A stretch of DNA of 64,000 bases from a virus, in IMG/VR virus record IMGVR_UViG_3300038701_002504, positions 45,509-109,508 of that record; one strand, 5' to 3'. The translations under genes and the position numbers were made by a program. The notes below the pieces were generated by a model. The model made no database searches. It was not told the DNA's origin and saw nothing but the letters and a program-made list of their open reading frames with translations. Every line of letters starts with the position of its first letter. The stretch's first letter is position 1. This document shows positions 10,802 through 57,451 of this stretch, piece by piece.

Positions 10802-11188
10802 ATGAGACAAGTAATATACAGAGACCTTAAAAAGTCATTCGACAAACATCCTGTGAGTAATGATCTTCTCACAATATCCGAAGAGGATGCTGTAAAAGAC
10901 TCTATTATGAATATTGTCTTCACATCTCCGTATGAGAGATATCGTAATCCAAGATTTGGCGCAGGAATTCCTGCTGATTTGTTTGAAAATTTGAGCCCAC
11001 AGACCGAATACCAAGTAAAGAACCGTATTGAGAATGCAATTAATACATACGAGCCACGTGCTATTCTTCAGAATGTTGCTGTTGCAGCAAATCTAGATCA
11101 GAATAATTATGTTGTGAGTATTCAATTCCGCGTGAGAAACAGTTTTGAAATTATTACTGTACAGAATATTCTAAGGAGAATACGATGA
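10802..11188 (+). CDS. gp25: Baseplate wedge protein gp25
   Basis: The product is 128 residues against 132 in T4. It shows the family pattern: SIMNIVFTSPYERYRNPRFGAG, then LFENLSP, then an EPRAIL motif and a C-terminal strand IQFRVRNSFE. gp25 binds gp6 and the tail sheath at the baseplate core and starts sheath polymerisation. The start follows the preceding stop directly (TAAATG), and the end overlaps the next gene by 4 bases. Confidence 0.9.
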   Translation: MRQVIYRDLKKSFDKHPVSNDLLTISEEDAVKDSIMNIVFTSPYERYRNPRFGAGIPADLFENLSPQTEYQVKNRIENAINTYEPRAILQNVAVAANLDQNNYVVSIQFRVRNSFEIITVQNILRRIR

Positions 11189-11625
11189 CATTTAAAGAGT
11201 ATCTAACAGAGCTATTCGACAGACCTGCCAAAATCTATACACTTGCTGATAATTTGACGGACAGGGAAGCCATATTCACTGTTGGAAATAACAAGTACAG
11301 TATATATTTAAGTAAGGAACCCATCAGAAAAATCGTATGGAACGTAACATTTGCTATTATAGAAATAGATGGTATGCCTGTGGGTGGTATAGATAGCATT
11401 AAAACAACAAATCTGAATGTTGATAAAAATGTTGTATTCGCAACAGTAATTAAGTTTATTGAGTCACATCACAGAAAAGAAGATACATATAAATTTACCA
11501 CATGGAAGATTGAAAAGTCGCGCATTAGACTTTATGATACATTATCCAAAAGATTGGCAAAAAAATATAATATGAAAGTAGAGAAATCAGTATTTGGAAA
11601 TGTTATTGAATGGCAATTGTCATAA
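11185..11625 (+). CDS. Unknown protein with possible capsid-targeting leader, 146 aa
   Basis: Family not recognised. The first residues MTFKEYLTELFD resemble the short leader of T4 internal head proteins, with LTE as a possible gp21 cleavage site. The remainder looks globular and basic toward the C-terminus (LSKRLAKKYNMKVEKS). It overlaps gp25 by 4 bases and is followed by a late promoter for gp6. Its product may be virion cargo rather than a baseplate part, but this is inference from about ten residues. Confidence 0.45.
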   Translation: MTFKEYLTELFDRPAKIYTLADNLTDREAIFTVGNNKYSIYLSKEPIRKIVWNVTFAIIEIDGMPVGGIDSIKTTNLNVDKNVVFATVIKFIESHHRKEDTYKFTTWKIEKSRIRLYDTLSKRLAKKYNMKVEKSVFGNVIEWQLS

Positions 11626-31395: not shown

Positions 31396-32184
31396 ATGGC
31401 ATCAACATCACCGGGTTATTTTTATCATTCGTTAATTAAAAAAGCTATCCAAATTTTTGGTAGCAGGTTTAATGACATCCAGATCAAGAGAATGAACACT
31501 GATGATACAGTTGAGCAGACTTTATCAGTTCCTATCCAATATGGTCCTATTCAGAAATATCTAGCTCGTATACAGGGTGATAGAGATAACAAAAGAAATG
31601 TGAATGCGATCTTTCCTCGTATGGCATTTGAAATAACGGGTTTTCAACGAGATGCATTAAGAAAAATAAATCCAACTGAAAAATTAAATTATGGTGTAAA
31701 TAGCGGTTATGTTCCAGTTCCATATGATATTCAATTTCAGCTAAATGTAGTAAGCATTAATGCTGAGGATGGTCTGAAGATTGTTGAACAGATTATTCCA
31801 TATTTTAACCCACAACTTGGTCTATCTGCCAAACTGATGGACGGATATGATAAAGTTTTTAATATTCCACTTGTATTAGATTCTGTAAATATGACAGATA
31901 CATATGAAGGTGACTTTATGTCCAGAAGAGCCATCATATGGCAATTGGATTTCACATTAAAATATTATTTCATTGGTCCGGTTACAGAATCTAAGTTGAT
32001 TAAGTTTGTAAAGGTGAATACATACTCAACTCCTGAAATGGATGAGATTGATGAATTTTACACAGCACAACCAGGTCTTACTGCGAATGGACAGCCTACA
32101 ACTGACATTAATGAAACGGTTGCTTATACATTGATTAATGAGGACGATGATTATGGATTTATTTTTCAAAGGAATCCTGAATGA
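31396..32184 (+). CDS. gp15: Tail sheath stabiliser / completion protein gp15
   Basis: This 262-residue protein is close to T4 gp15 (272). Typical segments are GYFYHSLIKKAIQIFGSRFNDI, PIQYGPIQKYLARIQGD, FPRMAFEITGF and LEWQLDFTLKYYFIGP-like WQLDFTLKYYFIGPV near residue 190. gp15 caps the finished tail and joins it to the neck. It overlaps the next gene by 4 bases. Confidence 0.9.
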   Translation: MASTSPGYFYHSLIKKAIQIFGSRFNDIQIKRMNTDDTVEQTLSVPIQYGPIQKYLARIQGDRDNKRNVNAIFPRMAFEITGFQRDALRKINPTEKLNYGVNSGYVPVPYDIQFQLNVVSINAEDGLKIVEQIIPYFNPQLGLSAKLMDGYDKVFNIPLVLDSVNMTDTYEGDFMSRRAIIWQLDFTLKYYFIGPVTESKLIKFVKVNTYSTPEMDEIDEFYTAQPGLTANGQPTTDINETVAYTLINEDDDYGFIFQRNPE

Positions 32185-32738
32185 ATAGCTTTAAACAATT
32201 CCTAGAAGAAGGTCGCGATGCTCCTTTATATCATGCATTATACGATGAATATGCTGTTTCAGCGATAAAACACAATCATCTTTTAGCTAAATCTGTGCAT
32301 AATATAAAGTTGGATATCAAACAGAATAGACTTAACAGATTTAGAGAAGCAAAAGTTATATCCCTCACCAGAAATTTAAGATTTGCTCTGAGATGGGCCG
32401 GCGGTGGAAGAGTTGATGGAGAATATAAAGTAATTTTCGAATTAGATCAAAGAAAACTAACTCAAAATTATAAACTTATTTCATATAACTTCTTTGCTAA
32501 TTATGGAAAACATCCAACAAGAAAAGGTGATAATGAATTAGGGATGGATGAATATAACTTTCCAAAAAATCAATATGAAGAATCAATAATTGGTGATGTA
32601 AAAAATTTAAATAAATATTTAACAAAAATAATGTTTGTTGATGTTTCAAATGTTAAAAAAGAAAACGAATATATGAAAATACTATTGAAACACCCACTAG
32701 CATGGGATATGAAAACAAAAAGGTTTATAAATGGCTAA
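32181..32738 (+). CDS. ADP-ribosyltransferase-like protein with capsid-targeting-like leader (copy 1)
   Basis: The first residues MNSFKQFLEEG match the T4 internal-protein leader type (for example MKTYQEFIAE), with LEE before Gly as a possible gp21 cut. The rest follows the His-Tyr-Glu ADP-ribosyltransferase layout: DAPLYHA, then ISLTRNLRFALRW, then VIFELDQRKLTQNYK, then YEESIIGDVKNLNKYLTKI with a candidate catalytic Glu. T4 Alt is an injected ADP-ribosyltransferase with such a leader. This copy has Ala where copy 2 has Thr after YHA, and no clear Tyr in the second motif. It lies between gp15 and gp16 with 4- and 8-base overlaps. Confidence 0.5.
   Translation: MNSFKQFLEEGRDAPLYHALYDEYAVSAIKHNHLLAKSVHNIKLDIKQNRLNRFREAKVISLTRNLRFALRWAGGGRVDGEYKVIFELDQRKLTQNYKLISYNFFANYGKHPTRKGDNELGMDEYNFPKNQYEESIIGDVKNLNKYLTKIMFVDVSNVKKENEYMKILLKHPLAWDMKTKRFING
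32205..32236. repeat. Direct repeat, copy 1 (start of ART-like gene 1)
   Basis: A 32-base segment is identical to 33164-33195; over a wider 47 bases there are two mismatches. It encodes the EEGRDAPLYHA part of both paralogues. Confidence 0.9.
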
Positions 32739-33147
32739 TGATCCAGTCTATGACAAATTAAATTTGAGACCTATATCAAACAAGTCTATTGAATTGGTGC
32801 CTCTTGATAAAAACAAAGGCGAACAACTTTCAGATGATTTAGATGAAGCTCGCACAAATACGAGACATCTTATCAATGTCGGTGAAGAAGCTTTGAAAGA
32901 ACTTCAGGATCTTTCGTCACAATCTCAAGATCCAAAGGCATATAGAGAACTTTCTGTTCTGATCAAAGTGATGTTAGATGCAAATAAATCACTTGTTGAT
33001 ACCGCGCGAGCTAGAAAAGAAATCGTCGTTGATGCGGATAAAGTTGTGAGTGATAATCCACAAACAGTTACAAATAATCTTTATGTTGGAACTACAACAG
33101 ACGCTGTTGATATTCTTAAACAGAAGAGATCTATAAAAGATGACTAG
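32731..33147 (+). CDS. gp16: Terminase small subunit gp16
   Basis: This 138-residue protein (T4 gp16: 164) sits directly before gp17's neighbour. It is helical, with AYRELSVLIKVMLDANKSLVDTA and a C-terminus QTVTNNLYVGTTTDAVDIL, the pattern of T4-type small terminases. gp16 forms a ring that regulates gp17 cutting and packaging. In this phage it is flanked by the two ART-like genes, overlapping both by 8 bases. Confidence 0.8.
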   Translation: MANDPVYDKLNLRPISNKSIELVPLDKNKGEQLSDDLDEARTNTRHLINVGEEALKELQDLSSQSQDPKAYRELSVLIKVMLDANKSLVDTARARKEIVVDADKVVSDNPQTVTNNLYVGTTTDAVDILKQKRSIKDD

Positions 33148-33652
33148 TTTTAAACAATTTCTTGAAGAAGGTCGCGATGCTCCTTTATATCATGCCACGA
33201 GACTTGATAATATAGATAGCATTATTCAAGCCGGTTTAAAACCTACTTCATCCCACTTCAGAAAAAAGCTAGGTTTAAATAGAAAAGAAAATGATTCTAC
33301 TTCAACTCATGGAATATCATTTACAAGAGATTTTAAAATAGCTCATAGATATGGCCAACATTATTTTGTTCAAAGATCATATGTTATATTTAAATTTGAT
33401 CAGAGAAAACTTACACAAAGATATAAATCTATTCCTGTTGATTATTTTTCTGATATGAGATCTAAAAAGATTTATGACAAAAGTAATCCAGATTTAAGCA
33501 CTCGTAGATTTTTTGAAGCTGAAAAATTTATCATAACGAAAAATCCCATACCATTATCATTTGCGACAGAAATATTTGTTCCTCAGGATATATCTGAACA
33601 ATATTTAAAACTAATACAAGATACACATTTGAAAGTAACATATTTTAAATGA
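33140..33652 (+). CDS. ADP-ribosyltransferase-like protein with capsid-targeting-like leader (copy 2)
   Basis: MTSFKQFLEEGRDAPLYHAT shares a near-identical start with copy 1. Later motifs are NIDSIIQAGLKP, HGISFTRDFKIAHRYG (with a Tyr), VIFKFDQRKLTQRYK and FEAEKFIITKNPIPLSFATEIFV (candidate Glu). This gives a fuller His-Tyr-Glu set than copy 1. Such small transferases are frequent, unassigned genes in T4-type phages. The leader suggests packaging in the head and injection. It overlaps gp16 and gp17 by 8 and 4 bases. Confidence 0.55.
   Translation: MTSFKQFLEEGRDAPLYHATRLDNIDSIIQAGLKPTSSHFRKKLGLNRKENDSTSTHGISFTRDFKIAHRYGQHYFVQRSYVIFKFDQRKLTQRYKSIPVDYFSDMRSKKIYDKSNPDLSTRRFFEAEKFIITKNPIPLSFATEIFVPQDISEQYLKLIQDTHLKVTYFK
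33164..33195. repeat. Direct repeat, copy 2 (start of ART-like gene 2)
   Basis: Identical to 32205-32236. Confidence 0.9.
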
Positions 33653-38753: not shown

Positions 38754-38781
38754 ACTATACACCGTTTCTCAGCAATGTAAA
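38754..38781 (-). promoter_or_regulatory. Early promoter of the gp18-gp19 island
   Basis: TTTACA, 16-base spacer with GAGAAACGGTG, TATAGT; the leader has ATTATCGAAACAAACATGGAGA as at 35642. Confidence 0.75.
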
Positions 38782-38791
38782 CCATATTTTT

Positions 38792-38799
38792 TATAAATA
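38792..38799 (+). promoter_or_regulatory. Late promoter TATAAATA for gp19
   Basis: Exact late consensus 25 bases before the gp19 ATG and back to back with the early promoter. Confidence 0.8.
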
Positions 38800-38824
38800 T
38801 CAATAAAATATAAAAGGAGAAGAA

Positions 38825-39373
38825 ATGGCATTTAATATTAACGAAATGCGTGCTGGTTTAGTTGGTGGTGGAGCTCGTCCTTCGCTTTTTGAAGTTATCA
38901 TTACAAACCCAATTTCATCAATTGCCGATATCCGCGTGCCTATTATGTGTAAAGCTACACAGTTACCAGGTCATACAATTGGTAAGATTGAAGTTCCATA
39001 TTTTGGTCGTAAAATTCCTATTCCAGGCGACAGAATTGTACAGGATTGGACTGTTACAATCATCAATGATGAAACTTTTGATGTTAGAAACGCACTTGAA
39101 ACTTGGTCAAATGCTATGAATTCTCAACAAGGGAACGTTGCAACCAGAGGAAGTTCTCCGTCTCTTTATACATCACAGGCATCTGTAAGACAGTTTGGTA
39201 AAGACGGAAGTGTTCTTCGTATTTATGAACTGAATGGAATATTCCCAATGGATATTTCTCCAATTGATCTGTCATGGGAATCAATTGATGTTATTGAAGA
39301 ATTCCAGGTTACATGGGCAGTTTCCGATTTTGCTGTGGTTGGTGGATCTTCCGGCGACGCTGGCGGCATCTGA
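38825..39373 (+). CDS. gp19: Tail tube protein gp19
   Basis: This 182-residue protein (T4: 163) has LVGGGARPSLFEVIITNP, CKATQLPGHTIGKIEVPYFGRKIPIPGDR and DWTVTIINDETFDVRNALE, the standard tail-tube pattern. Hexamer rings of gp19 form the tube through which DNA and cargo pass. It has its own late promoter and a weak terminator. Confidence 0.93.
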   Translation: MAFNINEMRAGLVGGGARPSLFEVIITNPISSIADIRVPIMCKATQLPGHTIGKIEVPYFGRKIPIPGDRIVQDWTVTIINDETFDVRNALETWSNAMNSQQGNVATRGSSPSLYTSQASVRQFGKDGSVLRIYELNGIFPMDISPIDLSWESIDVIEEFQVTWAVSDFAVVGGSSGDAGGI

Positions 39374-39392
39374 TATTACCTAATTTTATAAA

Positions 39393-39415
39393 ATGGGGCT
39401 TGGAATAGGCCCCAT
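39393..39415 (+). terminator. Hairpin after gp19
   Basis: ATGGGGC / GCCCCAT stem with a 9-base loop, followed by a mixed AT tract rather than a clean T run. It may be a terminator or an mRNA end stabiliser. Confidence 0.6.
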
Positions 39416-39422
39416 ATTATTT

Positions 39423-39430
39423 TATAAATA
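39423..39430 (+). promoter_or_regulatory. Late promoter TATAAATA for gp20
   Basis: Exact late consensus 22 bases before the gp20 ATG. Confidence 0.8.
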
Positions 39431-39452
39431 ATAATAAAATAAGGATTTTACT

Positions 39453-41153
39453 ATGGAACTTTTCGGATGGAAAATAGAAAAAAAGGAAGAAGAAAAAGAG
39501 ACTAAATCTCCTTTTCCTATGCTTGATGATGAAGGCTCTCTCATCATCGAAAAAAATTGGGTACCTGGTGCAGACCATGATGCCTATGCTGTTGCTACAA
39601 ATTTTGATGATGTGGTTTCTTCTGAAAGCGAGCTTATCACAAAATATAGAGAGATGTCTCAGCTGCCCGAAGTTGATTATGCTGTCGACGACATCATTAA
39701 TGAATTGATGTCTGTTGAAAAAGCAAATGATATTGTTGATATTGACCTTGATGAACTTGAATATTCTAAAGGTGTCAAAAACAAAATAACCGACGAATTC
39801 AATCACATTTTAACTCTATTGGATTTCAATAATTCTGCATATGAAATAGCGCGTAATTGGTACGTTGATGGTCGTTTAACGTACGAAATTATTGTCGATG
39901 AAAAAGATTATGTTAAGAATGGTATTAAAGAAGTTCGCTATATCGATCCAAGAACCATTAGAAAAATTAAAGAAATTAAGAACTCTCAGGGTAGAGCAAA
40001 TGCCATTTTAAAACAGTTAGCGGATGAATATTACATTTATTCACCAACTGGCTTTGGTAGACAGTCATTTAATACCGGAAGTATTTCAGGAACTGATGTT
40101 GTTAAAATGTCAGATGATTCTGTCGTTCATGTGACATCAGGAATTATGAACCATAATAAGACAATGGTTCAATCACATCTTCACAAAGCAATTCGTCCTC
40201 TTAATCAGTTGCGTGCACTAGAAGATGCTTCTATCATTTATCGTATATCTCGTGCACCTGAAAGAAGAATTTTCTATATTGACGTTGGTAACTTGCCTAA
40301 AGGTAAAGCCGAACAACACCTTCAAAATATTGCTCAGAAATATAAAAATAAACTTGTATATGATGGTAAAACTGGCGAAATACGAGATGACCGCAAATTT
40401 ATGACGATGACTGAGGATTATTTCCTTCCTCGTCGTTCTGATGGTAAAGCAACTGAAATCACAACGCTTCCAGGTGGTCAGAATCTTGGCGAATTAGAAG
40501 AAGTTAATTATTTCCTGAATAAATTCTATAGATCTCTTAATCTTCCAATTTCTCGTCTTGAAAGCCAAAGTGGATTCCAATTTGGTAGACAAACTGAAAT
40601 TTCTCGGGATGAATTAAAATTTGCTAAGTTTGTTGCGAGACTAAGAAAAAGATTTGCTCAGTTGTTCATTAAGCTTTTGAGAAGACAATTAGTGTTGAAA
40701 AATATTATGACTGCTGAAGAATTTGATAGTATTAAAAACAATATATCATTTGAATTTTCTGCCGACAACCTTATTGCTGAAAATAAAGAACAAGAAGTTC
40801 TAGCAGGTAGACTTGATATCCTGAATAATATTGACACTTATAAGGGTGTATACTTTTCTAAACAATTCATTCTTCGTAATGTTCTTCGTATGTCTCAGGA
40901 AGATATTGATGAGATGGAACAACAGATCGGAAAAGAAAAGAAAACAAATGAATATGACGAGGATAATCAGCTTAAATCATATAATGCTGATCCGAATGCA
41001 ATTGCACAAATGAACATGCAACAGGACCAACAAGATCACAGCCAAGAAGTTGAAAAAGATTCTCTAGAACATAAAAAGAAAATCGACAAAGAACTCCTTA
41101 AAAAAGGTTTAAATCCTAATCAACAAACACAATCTCAGGAAGAAAATGAATGA
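39453..41153 (+). CDS. gp20: Portal protein gp20
   Basis: This 566-residue protein (T4: 524) shows YREMSQLPEVDYAVDDIINE near residue 66, EVRYIDPRTIRKIKE near 163, APERRIFYIDVGNLPKGKAEQ near 269 and KFYRSLNLPISRLES near 353. These are typical T4 portal segments. The dodecamer is the DNA channel of the head and the start point of head assembly. The Gln-rich, charged C-terminus is extended compared with T4. It is followed by three candidate internal or core genes. Confidence 0.93.
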   Translation: MELFGWKIEKKEEEKETKSPFPMLDDEGSLIIEKNWVPGADHDAYAVATNFDDVVSSESELITKYREMSQLPEVDYAVDDIINELMSVEKANDIVDIDLDELEYSKGVKNKITDEFNHILTLLDFNNSAYEIARNWYVDGRLTYEIIVDEKDYVKNGIKEVRYIDPRTIRKIKEIKNSQGRANAILKQLADEYYIYSPTGFGRQSFNTGSISGTDVVKMSDDSVVHVTSGIMNHNKTMVQSHLHKAIRPLNQLRALEDASIIYRISRAPERRIFYIDVGNLPKGKAEQHLQNIAQKYKNKLVYDGKTGEIRDDRKFMTMTEDYFLPRRSDGKATEITTLPGGQNLGELEEVNYFLNKFYRSLNLPISRLESQSGFQFGRQTEISRDELKFAKFVARLRKRFAQLFIKLLRRQLVLKNIMTAEEFDSIKNNISFEFSADNLIAENKEQEVLAGRLDILNNIDTYKGVYFSKQFILRNVLRMSQEDIDEMEQQIGKEKKTNEYDEDNQLKSYNADPNAIAQMNMQQDQQDHSQEVEKDSLEHKKKIDKELLKKGLNPNQQTQSQEENE

Positions 41154-41461
41154 TAAAATTTAAAAATTTTCTTTTTGAGTATGAAGATTATTATTCTAAA
41201 GACAAATCAGTCGGCTCCGGTTTAAAACGTAAAAAATATAAAAACAAAAAACCAGGTAGATGGGCAAAACGTATTGGATCCGGAGTAGGAGCTGCAATTG
41301 GTGGGGCTGTTGGATTTGCGGCACGAGGAAATTATGGATTAGCAGGTGGTGCTGCAGCTGGTGGTGCAATTGGTTATAAAGCTGGAGAGGCTGCATCAAA
41401 CGCAAAAAGAAGAATTGCTGCAAATGCTTATGTTAAAAGAAGAAAAAAGCGTAATAGCTAA
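41150..41461 (+). CDS. Candidate internal head protein with glycine zipper, 103 aa
   Basis: The leader MIKFKNFLFEYED resembles a T4 capsid-targeting sequence, with LFE as a possible gp21 cut. A very basic stretch follows (GLKRKKYKNKKPGRWAKR), then a glycine-zipper segment (GAAIGGAVGFAARGNYG) from about residue 45 to 82, then another basic tail (KRRKKRNS). No named family. The composition, DNA-binding plus membrane-active, would suit a packaged and ejected protein. It overlaps gp20 by 4 bases. Confidence 0.55.
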   Translation: MIKFKNFLFEYEDYYSKDKSVGSGLKRKKYKNKKPGRWAKRIGSGVGAAIGGAVGFAARGNYGLAGGAAAGGAIGYKAGEAASNAKRRIAANAYVKRRKKRNS

Positions 41462-41465
41462 TTAA

Positions 41466-41473
41466 TATAAATA
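41466..41473 (+). promoter_or_regulatory. Late promoter TATAAATA for the gp67-like gene
   Basis: Exact late consensus 20 bases before the ATG at 41494, which is preceded by AAAGGAGATATAA. Confidence 0.75.
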
Positions 41474-41493
41474 TTATTAAAAAGGAGATATAA

Positions 41494-42072
41494 ATGTCAC
41501 TAGAAAAGTTACTTGTTGCGATAAAAGAAGGTAATTATGTTCAAGCTAAGGATGCTTTCTATCAAGAAGTGAATGAAAGAGTTAGCAATAAAATTGATGA
41601 AAAAAGATCTTCTATTTTAGAAGGCGAAGATAAAGAAGAATCAGAAGAAGAATCTGATGATGACGATGAAGAAGATGAAAACGACGACGACGATGATGAC
41701 AGTATAAAGGAATCTCTTTATTCTATGTCTGAATCTGAAATGAATTCATTTGTTGATTCATTGAATGAAACTGAATTAAATGTTCTATTATCTATTATTG
41801 AGTCTGACGAATATTTAATGGAAGGTATCGGTTCTAAAATTAAATCTGGTCTAAAAAAGACAGGTAATTTGGTAAAAAGAACTGCAGTTGGAACAGCTAA
41901 AGATGTAGCAAGAAATCTTGGACGTGGTGCAGCTGTTGCTGCGGGCGGAGCTGCTGGTATGGCAGCGGGTGGAATTCCTGGAGCAGTTGCTGGCGGAGTT
42001 GCTGGTAACATGGCATATCAAGCTGGAAAAGATACACTAAAAAAGAAATTGGCGGCTAGAAACAAAAAATGA
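41494..42072 (+). CDS. Prohead core protein gp67-like, fused to a glycine-zipper domain
   Basis: The first 70 residues follow T4 gp67: LEKLLVAIKEGNYVQAKDAFYQEV, then KIDEKRSSILEGED and a run of Asp and Glu. T4 gp67 ends there, at 80 residues. Here the protein continues to 192: a second acidic part, YLMEGIGSK with LME as a likely gp21 site, a basic stretch and a long Gly/Ala zipper (AAVAAGGAAGMAAGGIPGAV), ending basic. If cleaved, it would leave a small basic, hydrophobic fragment in the head. It lies between gp20 and gp21, as in T4. Confidence 0.65.
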   Translation: MSLEKLLVAIKEGNYVQAKDAFYQEVNERVSNKIDEKRSSILEGEDKEESEEESDDDDEEDENDDDDDDSIKESLYSMSESEMNSFVDSLNETELNVLLSIIESDEYLMEGIGSKIKSGLKKTGNLVKRTAVGTAKDVARNLGRGAAVAAGGAAGMAAGGIPGAVAGGVAGNMAYQAGKDTLKKKLAARNKK

Positions 42073-42428
42073 AAAAGATAACAGAAGGCATTTTAAATAA
42101 AAATTACGTTCAGGCTAAGGATGCCTTCTACGAAGAAGTTGACAGAAGAATCAACGAAAAAATAGAAGAAAAAAGAATTCAAATCCTTTCTGAAAAGAAA
42201 TGGAAACATTCTGGTCTTGCTGGTACAATTGGTGGTATTGCCGGTACAGTAGCCGGTGCAGGAACATTAAATCCTGCTCTTGCTGTTGCTGGTGGTGCAG
42301 CGGGTCTTGCCGCTGGAGAAGCTGGAGAGTATGCAGCTAAAAAAGTAGGTAGATTTGTTAAAAATAAATACCTTAGAAGAAAAAGAAAAAAAGCACAAGC
42401 TCTAAAGGTGAAAAACAATGGTAGATAA
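42069..42428 (+). CDS. gp67-like paralogue with glycine zipper, 119 aa
   Basis: The start NKNYVQAKDAFYEEVDRRINEK repeats that of the preceding gene, showing a tandem duplication, but the acidic region is missing. ILSEKKW gives a possible gp21 site (LSE), after which comes a Gly/Ala zipper (GTIGGIAGTVAGAG and VAGGAAGLAAGEAGE) and a strongly basic tail (RRKRKKAQALKVK). It overlaps both neighbours. The role is probably core component plus internal protein, by inference. Confidence 0.6.
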   Translation: MKKITEGILNKNYVQAKDAFYEEVDRRINEKIEEKRIQILSEKKWKHSGLAGTIGGIAGTVAGAGTLNPALAVAGGAAGLAAGEAGEYAAKKVGRFVKNKYLRRKRKKAQALKVKNNGR

Positions 42429-43803
42429 GCAGAAGACAATCGGCGGCAAAAAAGCATTTAAAGATATGTTTGGTGATCCTAAGATCTATCAAATTGACGA
42501 TCATGGGATTGAAGATCAGAAGGCCAAAAAAGATAAATCTCGTAAAGCTGATAAAGCTCCAGTTGCTGAGGGTATTAATGGTGAATGGACCAAGGAACGT
42601 TCACGCAGAGAAGATGAAAATATTAAAGCTGTAAAGAAGACATATGGCGATTTCAGAACTACTGTTGGAAAAAATTCAAAAGAGAAGATGAAAGAAATTG
42701 CTGCTTCTATGAATGAATCATGGGTTGTGACTATGCCTATATCTGATCCTGATAAAACTGGCAAAGAGATCAACAAAAGATTTATAGACCGCGGAATAGA
42801 TTATCAGGATATGGGATGGGACAAGCAAGGTAATCTTACTGTTGAATTTGATGATGAAAAAGAAGCAAAACGTGCTGCAATGATTTTAAAATCTTTCAGA
42901 CATTCTTCAAAAAATCAAATGCCTAAAGTTATGAAAGAATCTCTTTCTGATCTTAAATCTATGTATGCCTCATCAATACCTGAAATCGTCGATGAGATCA
43001 AAGAATTGTCATCAACTCTTATAGATTATTACATGGATCAAGAACAGGAATGGGCTGATACAAATGTTGCACCAGCTCCTGGTATGTATCTGGATTGGAA
43101 GGGTATCTATAGAGGTCTTGAAGATTTAAGAGATATTATGCTTTGTGCTGCACCAGATGAACTTGTTGGTATCGATGGAACAGATGATATGAATGAGTCT
43201 GCAAACGACTCAATGAGACAAAAAGTTATGTCAGCAATTGCAGCAGATATAAGAAAAACTAATGAAAAATTCAAAACTAAAAAAGATGTTGAAAGATATT
43301 TAGATTTCACCGGCGGCGACATCATTACTAAAATAACAAAGAATGATGATGATTTCAATAATATGCTTCAGTATGCTTCTGAAAAATTATCAAAGAATCT
43401 TAGAGAATCTAATCTCCATGAGATTTCAAAAGAAAGAAAAGATTCTTATGTAAAAAGATCTGCAACTGATGCCGGCTTAGCTAATTTTGGTAAAAGACAA
43501 TCTGATAAACCAGATGAAAAAAAGAAATTTGGTGATGTAGAAAGAAAAAGAAGAGCAGGTCTAAATTTAGCTCTTGCTAAAGGCGGTGACAAGCCTGTTT
43601 ATAAAAAAGAATCGCTTGATGAAGCATTCTCATCTGGATCATTGAAACTGATGGATGGATCAACATATAATTTAACATCAGACGAAGCAAAAGCTTTAAA
43701 TAAAGTGATGTCTTCAACAAAAGAAAAAGATCGTATGACAAAAAGAATCACTAAAAGTAAAAGTGATTTGAAGTCTATGATAGAATTTTCAAAGGAAGTG
43801 TAA
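42418..43803 (+). CDS. Prohead core / internal protein at the gp68 position, 461 aa
   Basis: The gene is between gp67-like genes and gp21, where T4 has gp68, but it is three times longer than T4 gp68 (141). It is rich in Lys, Asp, Glu and Ser. Near residue 340 it has LHEISKERKDSYVKRSATDA, a motif that recurs in virion proteins of unrelated phages. Segment ESWVVTMPISDPDK followed by VEFDDEKEAKRAAMIL may be a small ferredoxin-like fold. Several L-x-E sites could be gp21 cuts. A scaffold or internal polyprotein is the best guess. Confidence 0.5.
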   Translation: MVDKQKTIGGKKAFKDMFGDPKIYQIDDHGIEDQKAKKDKSRKADKAPVAEGINGEWTKERSRREDENIKAVKKTYGDFRTTVGKNSKEKMKEIAASMNESWVVTMPISDPDKTGKEINKRFIDRGIDYQDMGWDKQGNLTVEFDDEKEAKRAAMILKSFRHSSKNQMPKVMKESLSDLKSMYASSIPEIVDEIKELSSTLIDYYMDQEQEWADTNVAPAPGMYLDWKGIYRGLEDLRDIMLCAAPDELVGIDGTDDMNESANDSMRQKVMSAIAADIRKTNEKFKTKKDVERYLDFTGGDIITKITKNDDDFNNMLQYASEKLSKNLRESNLHEISKERKDSYVKRSATDAGLANFGKRQSDKPDEKKKFGDVERKRRAGLNLALAKGGDKPVYKKESLDEAFSSGSLKLMDGSTYNLTSDEAKALNKVMSSTKEKDRMTKRITKSKSDLKSMIEFSKEV

Positions 43804-44444
43804 TGAAACTTATAACAGAACAAAACTTTGATGTGAACTATATTAGAGAAAATCTAGAGGAAGGTAGAAAACCTACCTTATGGATCGAAGGAATTTTCAT
43901 GCAGGGGGACATTAAAAACCGTAATGGTAGAATTTATCCTGCTACAATTCTTGAAAGACAAATGAACTATTATGTTGAAAATTTCGTCTCAAAACATAGA
44001 TCGCTTGGAGAATTAAATCACCCAAATGGACCAACAATCAATCTTGATAAAGTATCTCATATGATTACTGAAATGAGACGTGATGGTTCTGATTTCTATG
44101 GTAAAGCAAAAATACTTGATACTCCAATGGGTAATATTGCGCGTTCATTAATTGATGAAGGTGCTTCTCTGGGAGTTTCAACAAGAGGTCTAGGATCTGT
44201 TAAACAATCTGGTGGTGCTATGGTTGTTCAAGAAGATTTTGTTCTGAATACAGTTGATATCGTTTCTCAGCCTTCTGCTATGGATGCGTGGGTAAATGGA
44301 ATCATGGAAGGGGTGGAATGGATCTGGGATGGTGATACTTTGAAAGAAGTAACATTAAATGAAATTAAAAAAGATTTAGACAAGCCACTATTAACTGAAG
44401 CACAAGTGTTAAGAAATTGGAAGAAATTTCTCAAAACGCTATAA
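43803..44444 (+). CDS. gp21: Prohead protease gp21
   Basis: The 213-residue product equals T4 gp21 (212). The serine protease pattern is clear: HRSLGELNHP with His73, and GASLGVSTRGLGSV with Ser126; DFVLNTVDIVSQPSA follows. It cuts core, capsid and internal proteins after (L/I)-x-E during head maturation, and it probably cuts its own N- and C-terminus (LTE near the end). It sits directly before the scaffold and capsid genes. Confidence 0.93.
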   Translation: MKLITEQNFDVNYIRENLEEGRKPTLWIEGIFMQGDIKNRNGRIYPATILERQMNYYVENFVSKHRSLGELNHPNGPTINLDKVSHMITEMRRDGSDFYGKAKILDTPMGNIARSLIDEGASLGVSTRGLGSVKQSGGAMVVQEDFVLNTVDIVSQPSAMDAWVNGIMEGVEWIWDGDTLKEVTLNEIKKDLDKPLLTEAQVLRNWKKFLKTL

Positions 44445-52877: not shown

Positions 52878-53092
52878 TATTTCTCCATTGTCTTTTCTAA
52901 TTTATTGATAAAAGCATCAATTTGTTTATGTCGTTTGTCGCCTGGCCAATTGATTATATTGGAATCTTTATCGCCTTTCAAATTTTCCAGAAAGGTCTTC
53001 ATCATCTCAAACATTTCCGATGTTCGATCAATTGGTTTAAAATCTTCTTCTGATTGGAATGTAAATCCAAAATCGTTAATATCTTCACTCAT
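52877..53092 (-). CDS. Small acidic protein upstream of uvsX, 71 aa
   Basis: The pattern INDFGFTFQSEEDF, a helical middle and NIINWPGDKRHKQIDAFINKLE matches a small protein that I recall between gp43 and uvsX in many T4-type phages; it has no known function. It overlaps the polymerase fragment by 8 bases and touches uvsX. It may be a replisome or recombination partner, by position. Confidence 0.6.
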   Translation of the reverse strand: MSEDINDFGFTFQSEEDFKPIDRTSEMFEMMKTFLENLKGDKDSNIINWPGDKRHKQIDAFINKLEKTMEK

Positions 53093-54878
53093 AAAATTGA
53101 CTCATATCAGATTTATTTTCTAATGAAATGCCGGCTGGATTTGCTAGCGATGTGATTGGTTTAATGAAGGTTTTTTCAAACTGTCTATCATAATCTATGA
53201 ATTGATCCAATCCAAACTCTTCTGGTAACTCATCTAAAGACGATATAACATCTTCACGTATAGGATTAGGCAATTTCAAATATGTGAATTTAATCTTATC
53301 ACCACTTTGAATTTTCATATATGTCTTATCTAGATCATGATCCTCTAACAGTTTGTTATATAGTAAAGAACCTCTTACATGAAGCGGTGTTCCTTTCGTA
53401 TATAGAGTATTTATATCACTATATTTCGAAACGCCATTTACTCCGCCTGGATTTGCAACTTTTTCAAATGGAAGTGAATAAAATTCTTCTCTACATTTTT
53501 CGATAAATGACAAAAGTCCATCTTTGTCATTGTTAAGAATTATTGGTATACTATTTTTGATATAATTTCTACATACTTCAGGAGTTGAAGATTTAACAGC
53601 TTCAATACCCTTCATCTTAATTTTCATTTCAGAATAGAATACACCTTCATTGAAGAATACGCCCATCACATAGTTCTTTGACTTACGCCAAATTACCTGA
53701 GCAATCACTTCAAGCTTCATATGTAATTTTTTCTGATATGCATTTGTTACTGAATATAGATCTTCCATAGCAGCTTGGATGACGTGTTCTTCAAGATGTT
53801 TTGAAAAATTTGATAAGAATTTAACAATTTCTTCTCTTTCACCACCATTCGGGAATGCTTTCTTAACAACGCCTTCCATATTAAAGTATGCTGAGTCTGT
53901 ATCTACAGCGATAATATAATCCACATTGTCCGTCTTTAACATCTTATTTAGATATATATTAGCGTATTTCTCAACATATTTAGAAGCCAATTGGCCACTT
54001 AGTGTAATAGACTCTGCAATGTCGTAGCTAAACCAACGTGAATACGGATTCGCAAGTCCTCCATAGAAGGCATTCGCGAAAATTTTAGTTGCTAATTGTT
54101 GGTTGTTAAATTCAACAACACGTGATTTTGTCTTTTTATATTCTTCCTTTAATTTGGCATCATCTGGATTTGTTGAAAGTTTTTTCTTAATTTCTTCAAG
54201 CTTCTGTTCTTCGAGAAGCATGATGTCTTTATATTCTTTTCGTTTCGCAAAAACTTCTTCCATGATTTCAGCAAAGAATGATTTTTTAGCTCGAGAAAAA
54301 ACTGTGCCTTTTGCAGTAATGCACATATTATTTTCCAGAAGTTTTTCTTTAATCTCATCATAAACTCTATCATTGATAATTCTATCTGGATTGTCAACAT
54401 TGTCGAATTTATCAAGTTTACCCATATAAGCATCTGGAGAAATATTATATGTCATAATAATATGTGGATAAAGTGATGTGAAGTCATATGACATAACATA
54501 TGGATACAAACCAGGAATCACTTCCTTCACATATCCACCAGCAATAATTCTGGAAAGCTCGCTACTTTCGGCTTTTTTATGTGGAATTACAACTTTATAA
54601 TCCATCATTTTATTATGAATCACAACATCACAGGGTTTCACAGTCGCGAACGCGTCATGTAGGTTTGTTCGAGTAAAATGTGATAATGAGAAAATGAGTT
54701 CAATAAATTTCAACTCATGTTCAAGTTCTTCAACTCGAACAATATCGATTATGTTGTATGTATATGCCATAGCATATGATTCTTTATCGGCTTCTGCTTC
54801 TACTTTTTCTAATAATTTTTGTAAATCTTCAGTAGAAATTGTTTTTATATCTAAATTTAATATTTCTTCTATATTCAT
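53085..54878 (-). CDS. gp43: DNA polymerase gp43, C-terminal fragment (Exo III motif plus polymerase domain)
   Basis: 597 residues. The third exonuclease motif AYTYNIIDIVRVEELE (Tyr41, Asp45) is here, away from Exo I and II, so the gene is broken inside the exonuclease domain. Polymerase motif A is MSYDFTSLYPHII (near 130-140), motif B KIFANAFYGGLAN (265-277) and motif C VDTDSAY (325-331); all key residues are present. The first 35 residues are an extra helical segment not found in T4. The ribosome site is weak. It must assemble with the N-terminal fragment for proofreading. Confidence 0.93.
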   Translation of the reverse strand: MNIEEILNLDIKTISTEDLQKLLEKVEAEADKESYAMAYTYNIIDIVRVEELEHELKFIELIFSLSHFTRTNLHDAFATVKPCDVVIHNKMMDYKVVIPHKKAESSELSRIIAGGYVKEVIPGLYPYVMSYDFTSLYPHIIMTYNISPDAYMGKLDKFDNVDNPDRIINDRVYDEIKEKLLENNMCITAKGTVFSRAKKSFFAEIMEEVFAKRKEYKDIMLLEEQKLEEIKKKLSTNPDDAKLKEEYKKTKSRVVEFNNQQLATKIFANAFYGGLANPYSRWFSYDIAESITLSGQLASKYVEKYANIYLNKMLKTDNVDYIIAVDTDSAYFNMEGVVKKAFPNGGEREEIVKFLSNFSKHLEEHVIQAAMEDLYSVTNAYQKKLHMKLEVIAQVIWRKSKNYVMGVFFNEGVFYSEMKIKMKGIEAVKSSTPEVCRNYIKNSIPIILNNDKDGLLSFIEKCREEFYSLPFEKVANPGGVNGVSKYSDINTLYTKGTPLHVRGSLLYNKLLEDHDLDKTYMKIQSGDKIKFTYLKLPNPIREDVISSLDELPEEFGLDQFIDYDRQFEKTFIKPITSLANPAGISLENKSDMSQFYE

Positions 54879-54910
54879 CTTTATTTTATCTTTCTGGAAA
54901 TCAACGATAT

Positions 54911-54924
54911 TATAAATATTTATA
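54911..54924. promoter_or_regulatory. Palindromic bidirectional late promoter
   Basis: TATAAATATTTATA contains a plus-strand TATAAATA (54911-54918) 26 bases before the HNH gene and a minus-strand TATAAATA (54924-54917) 39 bases before the polymerase C-fragment. Confidence 0.65.
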
Positions 54925-54943
54925 TAACATTAAGGATAGAGTA

Positions 54944-55660
54944 ATGAAAGAATTTATTAATTTTTCACATGATAACAATAACATAAAATCTAATAAATAT
55001 TTTAAATGGTATATCCAAATTATATTTAATTCCATTTATTCTAATAGACCTTTATTTCATAGAGAATATGAAAAACACCATATTCTTCCTAAAAGCTGTG
55101 GTGGAAGCAACGAAATAAATAATATATGTATTTTAACATATAAAGAACATTATATATGTCACTTATTGCTAACTAAATTTCTTCTTAAATATGAACATAA
55201 GCGAAATATGCAATTTGCACTACATACTTTTTTTCATTTTGATAAAAATAGAGTTTTAGCCTCAAAAAGATCCTTAATATATGAAAATCATAAAAAATTA
55301 TATAGTAAATATCTTTCTGAGAGAGAACCATCAAATGTTAGAGAAGAAATATATACTTTTAAAAACAAAAAAACCCATCAAATTTTTATAGGGCGACCAA
55401 TAGATTTTATAAAATTTTCAGGTTTAACCCATCAAGAAATGAATCATCTACAAAATGTTTATAATAAAAAAGCTTCATATAAACATATAAAAAATTGGGG
55501 TATTTTTTTAGATGATAAACAAATTTTTTCTTATGAGATTCCATATAAGAAAAGAAAACATCCTACAATTAAATGTGAGTTTTGTGGCAAAGTCACAGCA
55601 AAATTTAATTATGTAAGATGGCATGGAAAAAACTGTAAATCACTTATCAGTCCTGTTTAA
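54944..55660 (+). CDS. HNH homing endonuclease inserted in gp43
   Basis: 238 residues from the ATG with AAGGATAGAGTA before it. The HNH core is YEKHHILPKSCGGSNEINN and LTYKEHYICHLLL, with the His-His, Asn and His residues in place. The C-terminus has CEFCGKVTAKFNYVRWHGKNC, a small zinc-binding DNA-recognition motif. It is free-standing, antisense to the polymerase, and its 3' end overlaps that of the N-terminal polymerase fragment by 21 bases. It is expressed late from its own promoter. Confidence 0.9.
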   Translation: MKEFINFSHDNNNIKSNKYFKWYIQIIFNSIYSNRPLFHREYEKHHILPKSCGGSNEINNICILTYKEHYICHLLLTKFLLKYEHKRNMQFALHTFFHFDKNRVLASKRSLIYENHKKLYSKYLSEREPSNVREEIYTFKNKKTHQIFIGRPIDFIKFSGLTHQEMNHLQNVYNKKASYKHIKNWGIFLDDKQIFSYEIPYKKRKHPTIKCEFCGKVTAKFNYVRWHGKNCKSLISPV

Positions 55661-56656
55661 TAGTTCATCTTTTATTTTATCTCTCATATAACACAACTTT
55701 TCTAGTTTTATCATATCTTTAATATTTTTATTTTTATCGTATTTAAATACTTTTGATCCTTCCAATAGTTTATGTAGCTGTGTCATTTCGCCAGCTTTAA
55801 GCTTTTTCTTATCCAAAACAACATGCGAAATGTAATCTAATTTAAATGACTCAGAGTTTTTAAATGAGAACTTTTTATAACACTCCATATAGTCAAGAGT
55901 TGGAATGCCAATGATATCATATTGTGTTTGTTCTCTACCATACATCATAAAAGTACTTTCTTCTATGATGCCAAAAGGTGATAGAGATTTAGCAAAATCT
56001 TCACCAAACAATCTCATCAATCTTCGAATAAGATACACATGGTCGTAGCCGTTAATGTTCCAACCAGTGATAACATCCATTTTGAGACGTTGCCACGTCT
56101 CTACAAATTTAAGCAGAAGATCGCGTTCATTATCACATTTAATGTATATCACATTTTTTGTGACGCCTTCACGGTCAAGAATTTCTTGAATAGGCTCAGC
56201 ATCCTTAAGACCAAAGCAATACAACTCATTGTCAGACATCACACCGATTGAGATTGACGTGATCTCTTTATTTGCTGTTTTGATGTCGGCATAACCACCA
56301 TCAGAGTCAGTTTCAATATCGTAATTACCGATACGAATTACACTATTATCAGATTGGAGATCTTTATAATTGTCATAGATCCATACATAATCGAAGTATG
56401 TAGATCCATATAGGTTATATCCATCAATTCCTTCATGATCACGAATAAACTGACGAGCTTCGAATGGCGATTTAAATTGCTTTTTCTCAACATAATTTCC
56501 ATCCATGTTTTTGTATGGAGTTTTTTCCACCGAAGGAATAAACATATATGGATGTATTTTAATCTCTTCGTTAAATTTAATGCCGCCCTCATAATATGAA
56601 ATTAATAATTTCGATTTCGATTGCTTAAAAAATGTGTAAAATTTACTTTTTGACAA
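55640..56656 (-). CDS. gp43: DNA polymerase gp43, N-terminal fragment (Exo I and Exo II motifs)
   Basis: 338 residues. Exo I is GNYDIETDSDG (Asp113, Glu115), and Exo II is ITGWNINGYDHVYLIRR with Asp205. GIPTLDYMECYKKFSFKNSE matches the T4/RB69 segment before the break. It ends in an extra helical stretch (KDMIKLEKLCYMRDKIK) not in T4. The start appears to be TTG, with AAGGATAAAA before it; no ATG gives a better start. The two fragments together total 935 residues against 898 in T4. Confidence 0.92.
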   Translation of the reverse strand: MSKSKFYTFFKQSKSKLLISYYEGGIKFNEEIKIHPYMFIPSVEKTPYKNMDGNYVEKKQFKSPFEARQFIRDHEGIDGYNLYGSTYFDYVWIYDNYKDLQSDNSVIRIGNYDIETDSDGGYADIKTANKEITSISIGVMSDNELYCFGLKDAEPIQEILDREGVTKNVIYIKCDNERDLLLKFVETWQRLKMDVITGWNINGYDHVYLIRRLMRLFGEDFAKSLSPFGIIEESTFMMYGREQTQYDIIGIPTLDYMECYKKFSFKNSESFKLDYISHVVLDKKKLKAGEMTQLHKLLEGSKVFKYDKNKNIKDMIKLEKLCYMRDKIKDELLNRTDK

Positions 56657-56737: not shown

Positions 56738-57451
56738 ATGAGTATTTATACAGTATATCAAACTACTAATCTTGTAAACAACAAATTTTATATTGGTGTT
56801 CATAAAACAGATGATCCGCATGATGATTATTTGGGTTCTGGGAGACTGATAACTAGAGCAATAAAGAAGTATGGACAAGAAAACTTTGTGAAAAAGATTC
56901 TATTTATTTTTGATAATAGAGAAGATGCTTATGATAAAGAGAAAGAGCTTGTTAATATAATACTGCTTGAAAATTCATTATGTTATAATATGAAGGAAGG
57001 TGGGATAGGAGGAAAACATTCCAAAGAATCACGAGAAAATATATCAAAAGCCCAAATAGGTAAAAAACGTAATAGTGAGGCATGTGCTAATATATCAAAA
57101 GCTTTAAAGGGTAGAAAAATATCTAACAAACATAAAGAAAAACTATCAAAAGCAGCTAAAGATAGAAAATATACTAGAGAATTTTCAGAAGCTATGTCAA
57201 AGGCATTAAAGGGTAATGTTTTAGTATCCATGTCTCATTTAAAGTATCACTATAAGTTGATAGACCCAAGCGGAAATATTCAACTTGTTGAAACTGGATT
57301 AGTAAAATGGTTAAATGAAAACAATATGCCATTAAACTCAATAGCAGTTTTAAATAAGGCCTCTGGAAAAATTATATCCAGAGGCATTTTTAAAGGATGG
57401 ATATCAATTAAGTATTTAATTCCTCCAGATCATAGCCAAGATACATTCTGA
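56738..57451 (+). CDS. GIY-YIG homing endonuclease (Seg-like)
   Basis: 237 residues. The catalytic domain has YTVYQTTNLVNNKFYIGVHKT (VYQ for GIY, YIG intact), YLGSGRLITRAIKKYGQENF and a DKEKELVN segment with the Glu. Residues 90-165 carry repeated SKAxxGKK-type modules (NUMOD3-like DNA-binding motifs) such as NISKAQIGKKRNSE and MSKALKGN. It lies antisense just upstream of the polymerase gene. Its 3' end overlaps that of the gene at 58028 by 44 bases. Confidence 0.9.
   Translation: MSIYTVYQTTNLVNNKFYIGVHKTDDPHDDYLGSGRLITRAIKKYGQENFVKKILFIFDNREDAYDKEKELVNIILLENSLCYNMKEGGIGGKHSKESRENISKAQIGKKRNSEACANISKALKGRKISNKHKEKLSKAAKDRKYTREFSEAMSKALKGNVLVSMSHLKYHYKLIDPSGNIQLVETGLVKWLNENNMPLNSIAVLNKASGKIISRGIFKGWISIKYLIPPDHSQDTF

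Follow-up and report, generated by a model that had tools for sequence, protein, structure and literature searches.

T4 is the model for infection by contractile-tailed phages, and its gp67 belongs to the prohead core and is required for the shape of the head. To our knowledge, no dedicated internal membrane-acting ejection peptides have been established for T4. Other proteins enter its head by means of a capsid-targeting sequence (CTS). In T4 IPIII, positions 4 and 7 of this leader serve capsid targeting and positions 8 and 10 serve processing, and the prohead protease gp21 cleaves at the motif L/I-x-E (PMC9026906). The CTS proteins stay in the T4 head and are then ejected, whereas the fragments of gp67 and gp68 mostly leave the prohead (PMC9026906, PMC9958956). 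A glycine zipper with a membrane function is found in the type VI secretion effector Tde1, which depends on it both for permeabilising the inner membrane and for crossing it (PMC10240207).

Three genes between gp20 and gp21

The record studied here belongs to a T4-type phage (109.5 kb, linear). The window, that is, the whole stretch of 64,000 nucleotides that was analysed, covers its positions 45509-109508. The head genes are arranged in the order gp19, gp20, ORF1, ORF2, ORF3, a 461-residue gene, gp21, gp22, gp23 (Table 1); the first-pass annotation, made from the DNA alone, had the coordinates and reading frames of ORF1-3 exactly. The late-promoter match found ahead of ORF2, TATAAATA, also precedes gp19, gp20, gp22 and gp23. 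Adjacent genes overlap, by ATGA at the gp20/ORF1 and ORF2/ORF3 junctions and by 11 nt between ORF3 and the next gene, and codon usage in ORF1-3 is normal for the phage (CAI 0.69-0.73 in frame vs 0.32-0.42 out of frame). Could the arrangement be an assembly artefact? This is unlikely given the intact frames, the normal codon usage and the natural gene overlaps.

Table 1. Features of the head-gene region and CTS-led paralogues (positions are those of the window unless another locus is named; a slash marks a predicted cut)
Feature	Position	Strand	Remarks
gp20 portal protein	39453..41153	+	context gene
ORF1	41150..41461	+	103 aa
CTS of ORF1	41150..41179	+	predicted gp21 site LFE/Y; pattern positions 4, 7, 8, 10
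Late-promoter match TATAAATA, T4-type	41466..41473	+	28 nt upstream of ORF2
ORF2	41494..42072	+	192 aa
Predicted ORF2 fragment, residues 111-192	41824..42069	+	pI 11.3; no further [LI]xE
ORF3	42069..42428	+	119 aa
Predicted ORF3 fragment, residues 43-119	42195..42425	+	77 aa; pI about 11; no further [LI]xE
ORF4	42418..43803	+	461 aa; at T4 gene 68 position; counterparts in L090, L158
gp21 prohead protease	43803..44444	+	Peptidase_S77, E=5.9e-38
CTS-led paralogues	window 32181-32738, 33140-33652; L168 14045-14641; L169 18772-19398, 19767 onward; L170 350-3988 (contig 38772-44000)		

Elsewhere in the window, the DNA polymerase gene appears from the translations to be split into two minus-strand ORFs of 597 and 338 aa (53085-56656). 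An HNH-like ORF lies between them on the plus strand (54839-55660), and a GIY-YIG-like ORF follows at 56738.

The leader of ORF1

ORF1 consists of the leader MIKFKNFLFE, a basic linker, a glycine zipper (about residues 42-81) and a basic tail, RIAANAYVKRRKKRNS. The leader-type N-terminus that had been proposed for it holds up: all four CTS determinants are present (F4, F7, L8 and E10), and the leader ends in L/I-x-E. Starts with the CTS pattern number 12 in the 109-kb contig, compared with a mean of 0.24 and a maximum of 2 in shuffled proteins, so these leaders are not due to chance. Beyond residue 10 the protein is basic (pI 10.7, net +19). It carries the zipper motif without belonging to a curated glycine-zipper Pfam family (PF13488 and others); Gly-zipper_Omp scores 17.1 bits, under its cut-off of 25.

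The gp67 N-termini of ORF2 and ORF3

ORF2 is made up of a gp67 N-terminus (residues 1-43, ILE/G), an acidic tract (44-70), a helical linker (71-110, LME/G) and a basic glycine-zipper domain (111-192). ORF3 has a second gp67 N-terminus (1-42, LSE/K), followed by a zipper and a basic tail. The first-pass annotation had seen leader or gp67-like N-termini on the three genes, and the PHROG 1064 profile ('prohead', gp67 family) supports the gp67 type with matches to ORF2 (E=9e-10) and ORF3 (E=1.5e-4); Pfam GP67 (PF17634) gives 17.1 bits on ORF2, below its cut-off of 27. The ILE of ORF2 and the LSE of ORF3 sit where T4 gp67 has LIE/G, at the end of its N-terminal helix. The DNA encoding the two N-termini agrees at 58 of 75 aligned positions, so they look like duplicates.

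T4 gp67 ends with its acidic tract and, as had been pointed out, lacks a zipper or basic C-terminal domain. ORF2 runs on for about 120 residues after the acidic tract, and ORF3 has no such tract. Since neither ends in an acidic tract, both are derivatives of gp67 rather than plain gp67. No match to the gp68 profile (PHROG 1049) was obtained, and the alignment of the ORF2 linker with T4 gp68 is weak (15 of 1000 shuffles were as good). Two gp67-like proteins with differing C-terminal parts are also encoded in each of four other gp20-gp21 intervals (L020, L039, L041, L049); the joining of a gp67 N-terminus to new C-termini is therefore not unique to this phage. These intervals suggest that the gp67 N-terminus is a module that can be reused.

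The zipper parts

The zipper with its basic stretches, described at first pass for each of the three genes, was recovered on all of them. Among 7,841 ORFs from 1.9 Mb of retrieved DNA, only nine have zippers this strong, and three of the nine are ORF1-3. (Most of what a looser scan picked up was the Gly-rich region near the N-terminus of major capsid proteins; these hits were judged false.) When the zipper parts were compared with one another, the likeness of ORF1 to ORF2 and to ORF3 beat 500 of 500 shuffles in each case, and that of ORF2 to ORF3 beat 498 of 500. This likeness exceeds what composition gives and suggests that one zipper module was copied among the three genes.

Searches of phage records and IMG/VR found no homologues of any of the three proteins. 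The sequence matches in the PDB were weak and probably compositional (for example, an OmpA-family protein with ORF1, E=0.006); matches of ORF1-3 to pore and zipper families were also weak and could be compositional. AlphaFold2 yielded no usable model (mean pLDDT 47 for ORF2 and 54 for ORF3; pTM < 0.3). Hydrophobicity is marginal, the best 19-residue Kyte-Doolittle means being 1.1-1.3. On an unweighted insertion scale, the most favourable segments of 19 residues have values of +4.6 to +7.0 and so are not clear transmembrane helices. With hydrophobicity this modest, membrane insertion is possible rather than confidently predicted.

Predicted cleavage sites and fragments

LFE in ORF1 (residues 8-10), LME in ORF2 (108-110) and LSE in ORF3 (40-42) had been named as gp21 sites. 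All three are present, but the motif is common: the three proteins contain 12 [LI]xE in all, seven of them in ORF2 and four in ORF3. The motif alone is accordingly weak evidence, and the exact cuts are uncertain. No [LI]xE lies downstream of the last site in any of the proteins, and the basic zipper fragments left by gp21 would therefore be intact. The predicted lengths are 93 aa (ORF1), 82 aa (ORF2) and 77 aa (ORF3), with pI 10.7-11.3 (the ORF3 value, 11.2, was computed on residues 44-119) and net charges of +14 to +19. By homology, core targeting and gp21 processing of ORF1-3 are likely.

Distribution among relatives

Among relatives with a complete interval, L090 (portal 74% identical) and L158 (gp21 75% identical) come closest; L158 is a contig of 186 kb that forms part of a Hyphomicrobiales MAG. 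In both, the interval contains a single plain acidic gp67 of 70-71 aa and, behind it, the 461-aa gene's counterpart; zippers are absent. Nor was a zipper found outside the window in a survey of 119 distinct gp20-gp21 intervals, a few of which are copies of the window's own and some 115 of which are others. The first-pass annotation knew of no such set in other T4-type phages; consistent with this, the zipper is absent from the gp20-gp21 interval of every other locus examined. As the nearest relatives have no zipper genes, the zippers are, on this comparison, a recent, lineage-specific gain, and the virus apparently acquired this new set of head-loaded proteins not long ago.

The nearest cultivated relative, Rhizobium phage RHph_I1_18 (portal 56% identical), likewise has no zipper in its gp20-gp21 interval. 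It does encode a zipper protein, QIG70833.1 (EVB91_282; L083 5992-6414), between gp21 and gp22. This protein has no other match in the phage collection, and in comparisons with ORF1, ORF2 and ORF3 respectively 0, 1 and 4 of 500 shuffles were as alike.

Other CTS-led proteins

The phage has at least 12 CTS-led paralogues that begin M..FKQ[FY]LEEGRDAPLYH[GA]T, and a tandem cluster at contig 38772-44000 holds the majority. The paralogues have in common H18, S64-x-x-R67, D84-Q85 and E116-E117, a set reminiscent of ADP-ribosyltransferases; matches to PARP and DarT are weak and were obtained with one paralogue only. The paralogues are possibly a battery of injected Alt-like enzymes, and this family is perhaps more interesting than the zipper trio itself. 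Members also occur in L158 (five), L090 (one) and RHph_I1_18 (one). Since L158 has five members and no zippers, the zippers are not needed to deliver the family, which weakens the idea that the two are linked.

Two further starts of this kind were seen. A CTS-led protein (MISFKDYLKE) at L168 13070-13558 has an RNA ligase PHROG match (phrog_755, E=8e-20); it may be an RNA ligase or a protein of 2H phosphoesterase type that is packaged in the capsid. The ORF at window 11185-11625 has a CTS-like start, MTFKEYLTE, and matches PHROGs of unknown function (phrog_16075, E=6.5e-9).

Proposed role

What might the three proteins do? The reading that we prefer, tentatively and at somewhat under an even chance, is that ORF1-3 are late head-core proteins, each of which joins a T4-type loading tag to a small basic glycine-zipper cargo, the tag being the CTS in ORF1, the gp67 N-terminal core-binding segment in ORF2 and a duplicate copy of that segment in ORF3. 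The tag would place the proteins in the prohead core, and gp21 would cut behind L/I-x-E, setting free whole basic zipper peptides of about 77-93 aa; packaging and cleavage are what we infer from homology. The subsequent steps are speculative. At least the CTS-borne peptide of ORF1 would stay in the mature head, and perhaps also those of ORF2 and ORF3, since they are basic and may bind DNA. The retained peptides would pass down the tail tube together with the DNA and, once at the host inner membrane, make it easier for the DNA and for co-packaged proteins to get through.

The observed basis of this proposal is the genes themselves, their tags, sites and charge, the zipper pattern and its lineage-specific gain. 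The CTS match, the gp67 profiles, the placement of ILE/G and LSE/K, the lack of further [LI]xE in the zipper parts, the position between gp20 and gp21, the late promoter and the mutual likeness of the zipper parts argue for it, as do the need of Tde1 for its zipper and the RHph_I1_18 zipper protein, which lies in the same gene cluster with its zipper behind [LI]xE motifs. Against it stand the frequency of [LI]xE, the weak hydrophobicity, the weak family matches, the CTS-led family of L158, which has no zippers beside it, and the loss of most gp67 and gp68 fragments from T4 heads. Because those fragments mostly leave, retention of the ORF2 and ORF3 fragments is not a given; the T4 CTS proteins stay, so that retention and ejection can be proposed most safely for the ORF1 peptide. 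The first-pass annotation had the anatomy right, but its claims for function (membrane-active fragments serving as an ejected pore or DNA-compaction set) exceeded the evidence, the zippers being only marginally hydrophobic.

The main rival, which we think unlikely, is a membrane anchor for head assembly. The gp67 part would sit in the core and the zipper in the membrane near the portal; a gp21 cut between them would release the prohead, and the zippers would stay in the dying host. T4 proheads are indeed built and matured at the inner membrane and come away from it during maturation by gp21 (PMC9026906), the genes stand directly behind the portal gene, and the cut sites of ORF2 and ORF3 fall between core part and zipper. 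However, the CTS of ORF1 marks cargo that is kept inside the head, close relatives build heads without zippers, and the zipper segments are weakly hydrophobic. It is also improbable that the proteins are a DNA-binding filler with no membrane role, in which the basic tails would neutralise packaged DNA and the Gly/Ala zipper would drive self-association. The pI and net charge of the fragments would suit such a filler, as would the precedent of T4 gp68, whose basic tail exists without a zipper, but DNA binding does not need a zipper of such strength, otherwise nearly absent from the sampled loci. An injected antibacterial or counter-defence effector unrelated to DNA entry, such as a membrane-depolarising or superinfection-exclusion peptide, is very unlikely: although the phage has many other CTS-led proteins and injected internal proteins typically turn over in a lineage-specific way (PMC9026906), two of the three proteins use the tag of gp67, which is scaffold-type and not a known carrier of injected effectors.

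A stronger statement of the proposal that the zipper peptides are retained and ejected would be that the gp67 N-terminus became a cargo tag, and that duplicated gp67 copies and the CTS together deliver gp21-released peptides as an ejected membrane-permeabilising set, the T4-type counterpart of the podovirus ejection proteins. We consider this conceivable but rather doubtful. If the gp67 and CTS tags do carry zipper peptides, head cargo could be renewed by simple fusion to a scaffold tag, and the gp67 tag would join the CTS as a second natural signal for loading the capsid.

Comparison with known systems

A membrane role has a good analogue in the zipper of Agrobacterium Tde1, which like those of ORF1-3 has repeated GxxxG in a short segment. 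Tde1 reaches its target through a contractile injector; it is no head protein but a DNase effector, and the likeness is an analogy only. QIG70833.1 of RHph_I1_18 resembles ORF1-3 in belonging to the head-core cluster and in having its zipper behind several [LI]xE motifs. It differs in lying after gp21, in having neither a gp67 nor a CTS start, in being present as a single copy and in being more hydrophobic.

Among T4 proteins, gp68 is like ORF1-3 in having a strongly basic tail (pI 12) behind its last [LI]xE motif, so core proteins with a basic C-terminal part are no novelty as such; unlike ORF1-3, gp68 has no zipper. With gp67 the proteins share the position behind gp20 and an N-terminal helical segment ending in [LI]xE, and ORF2 shares the acidic tract as well; ORF2 is extended by a linker and a basic zipper, whereas ORF3 has a zipper instead of the acidic tract. 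IPI-IPIII have, like ORF1, a ten-residue leader (aromatic at 4 and 7, L8, E10) followed by a basic protein. No sequence similarity was found between ORF1 and the T4 internal proteins, and the mature part of ORF1 is a glycine zipper. The trio is a real, non-random, lineage-specific variant of the T4-type core and internal proteins.
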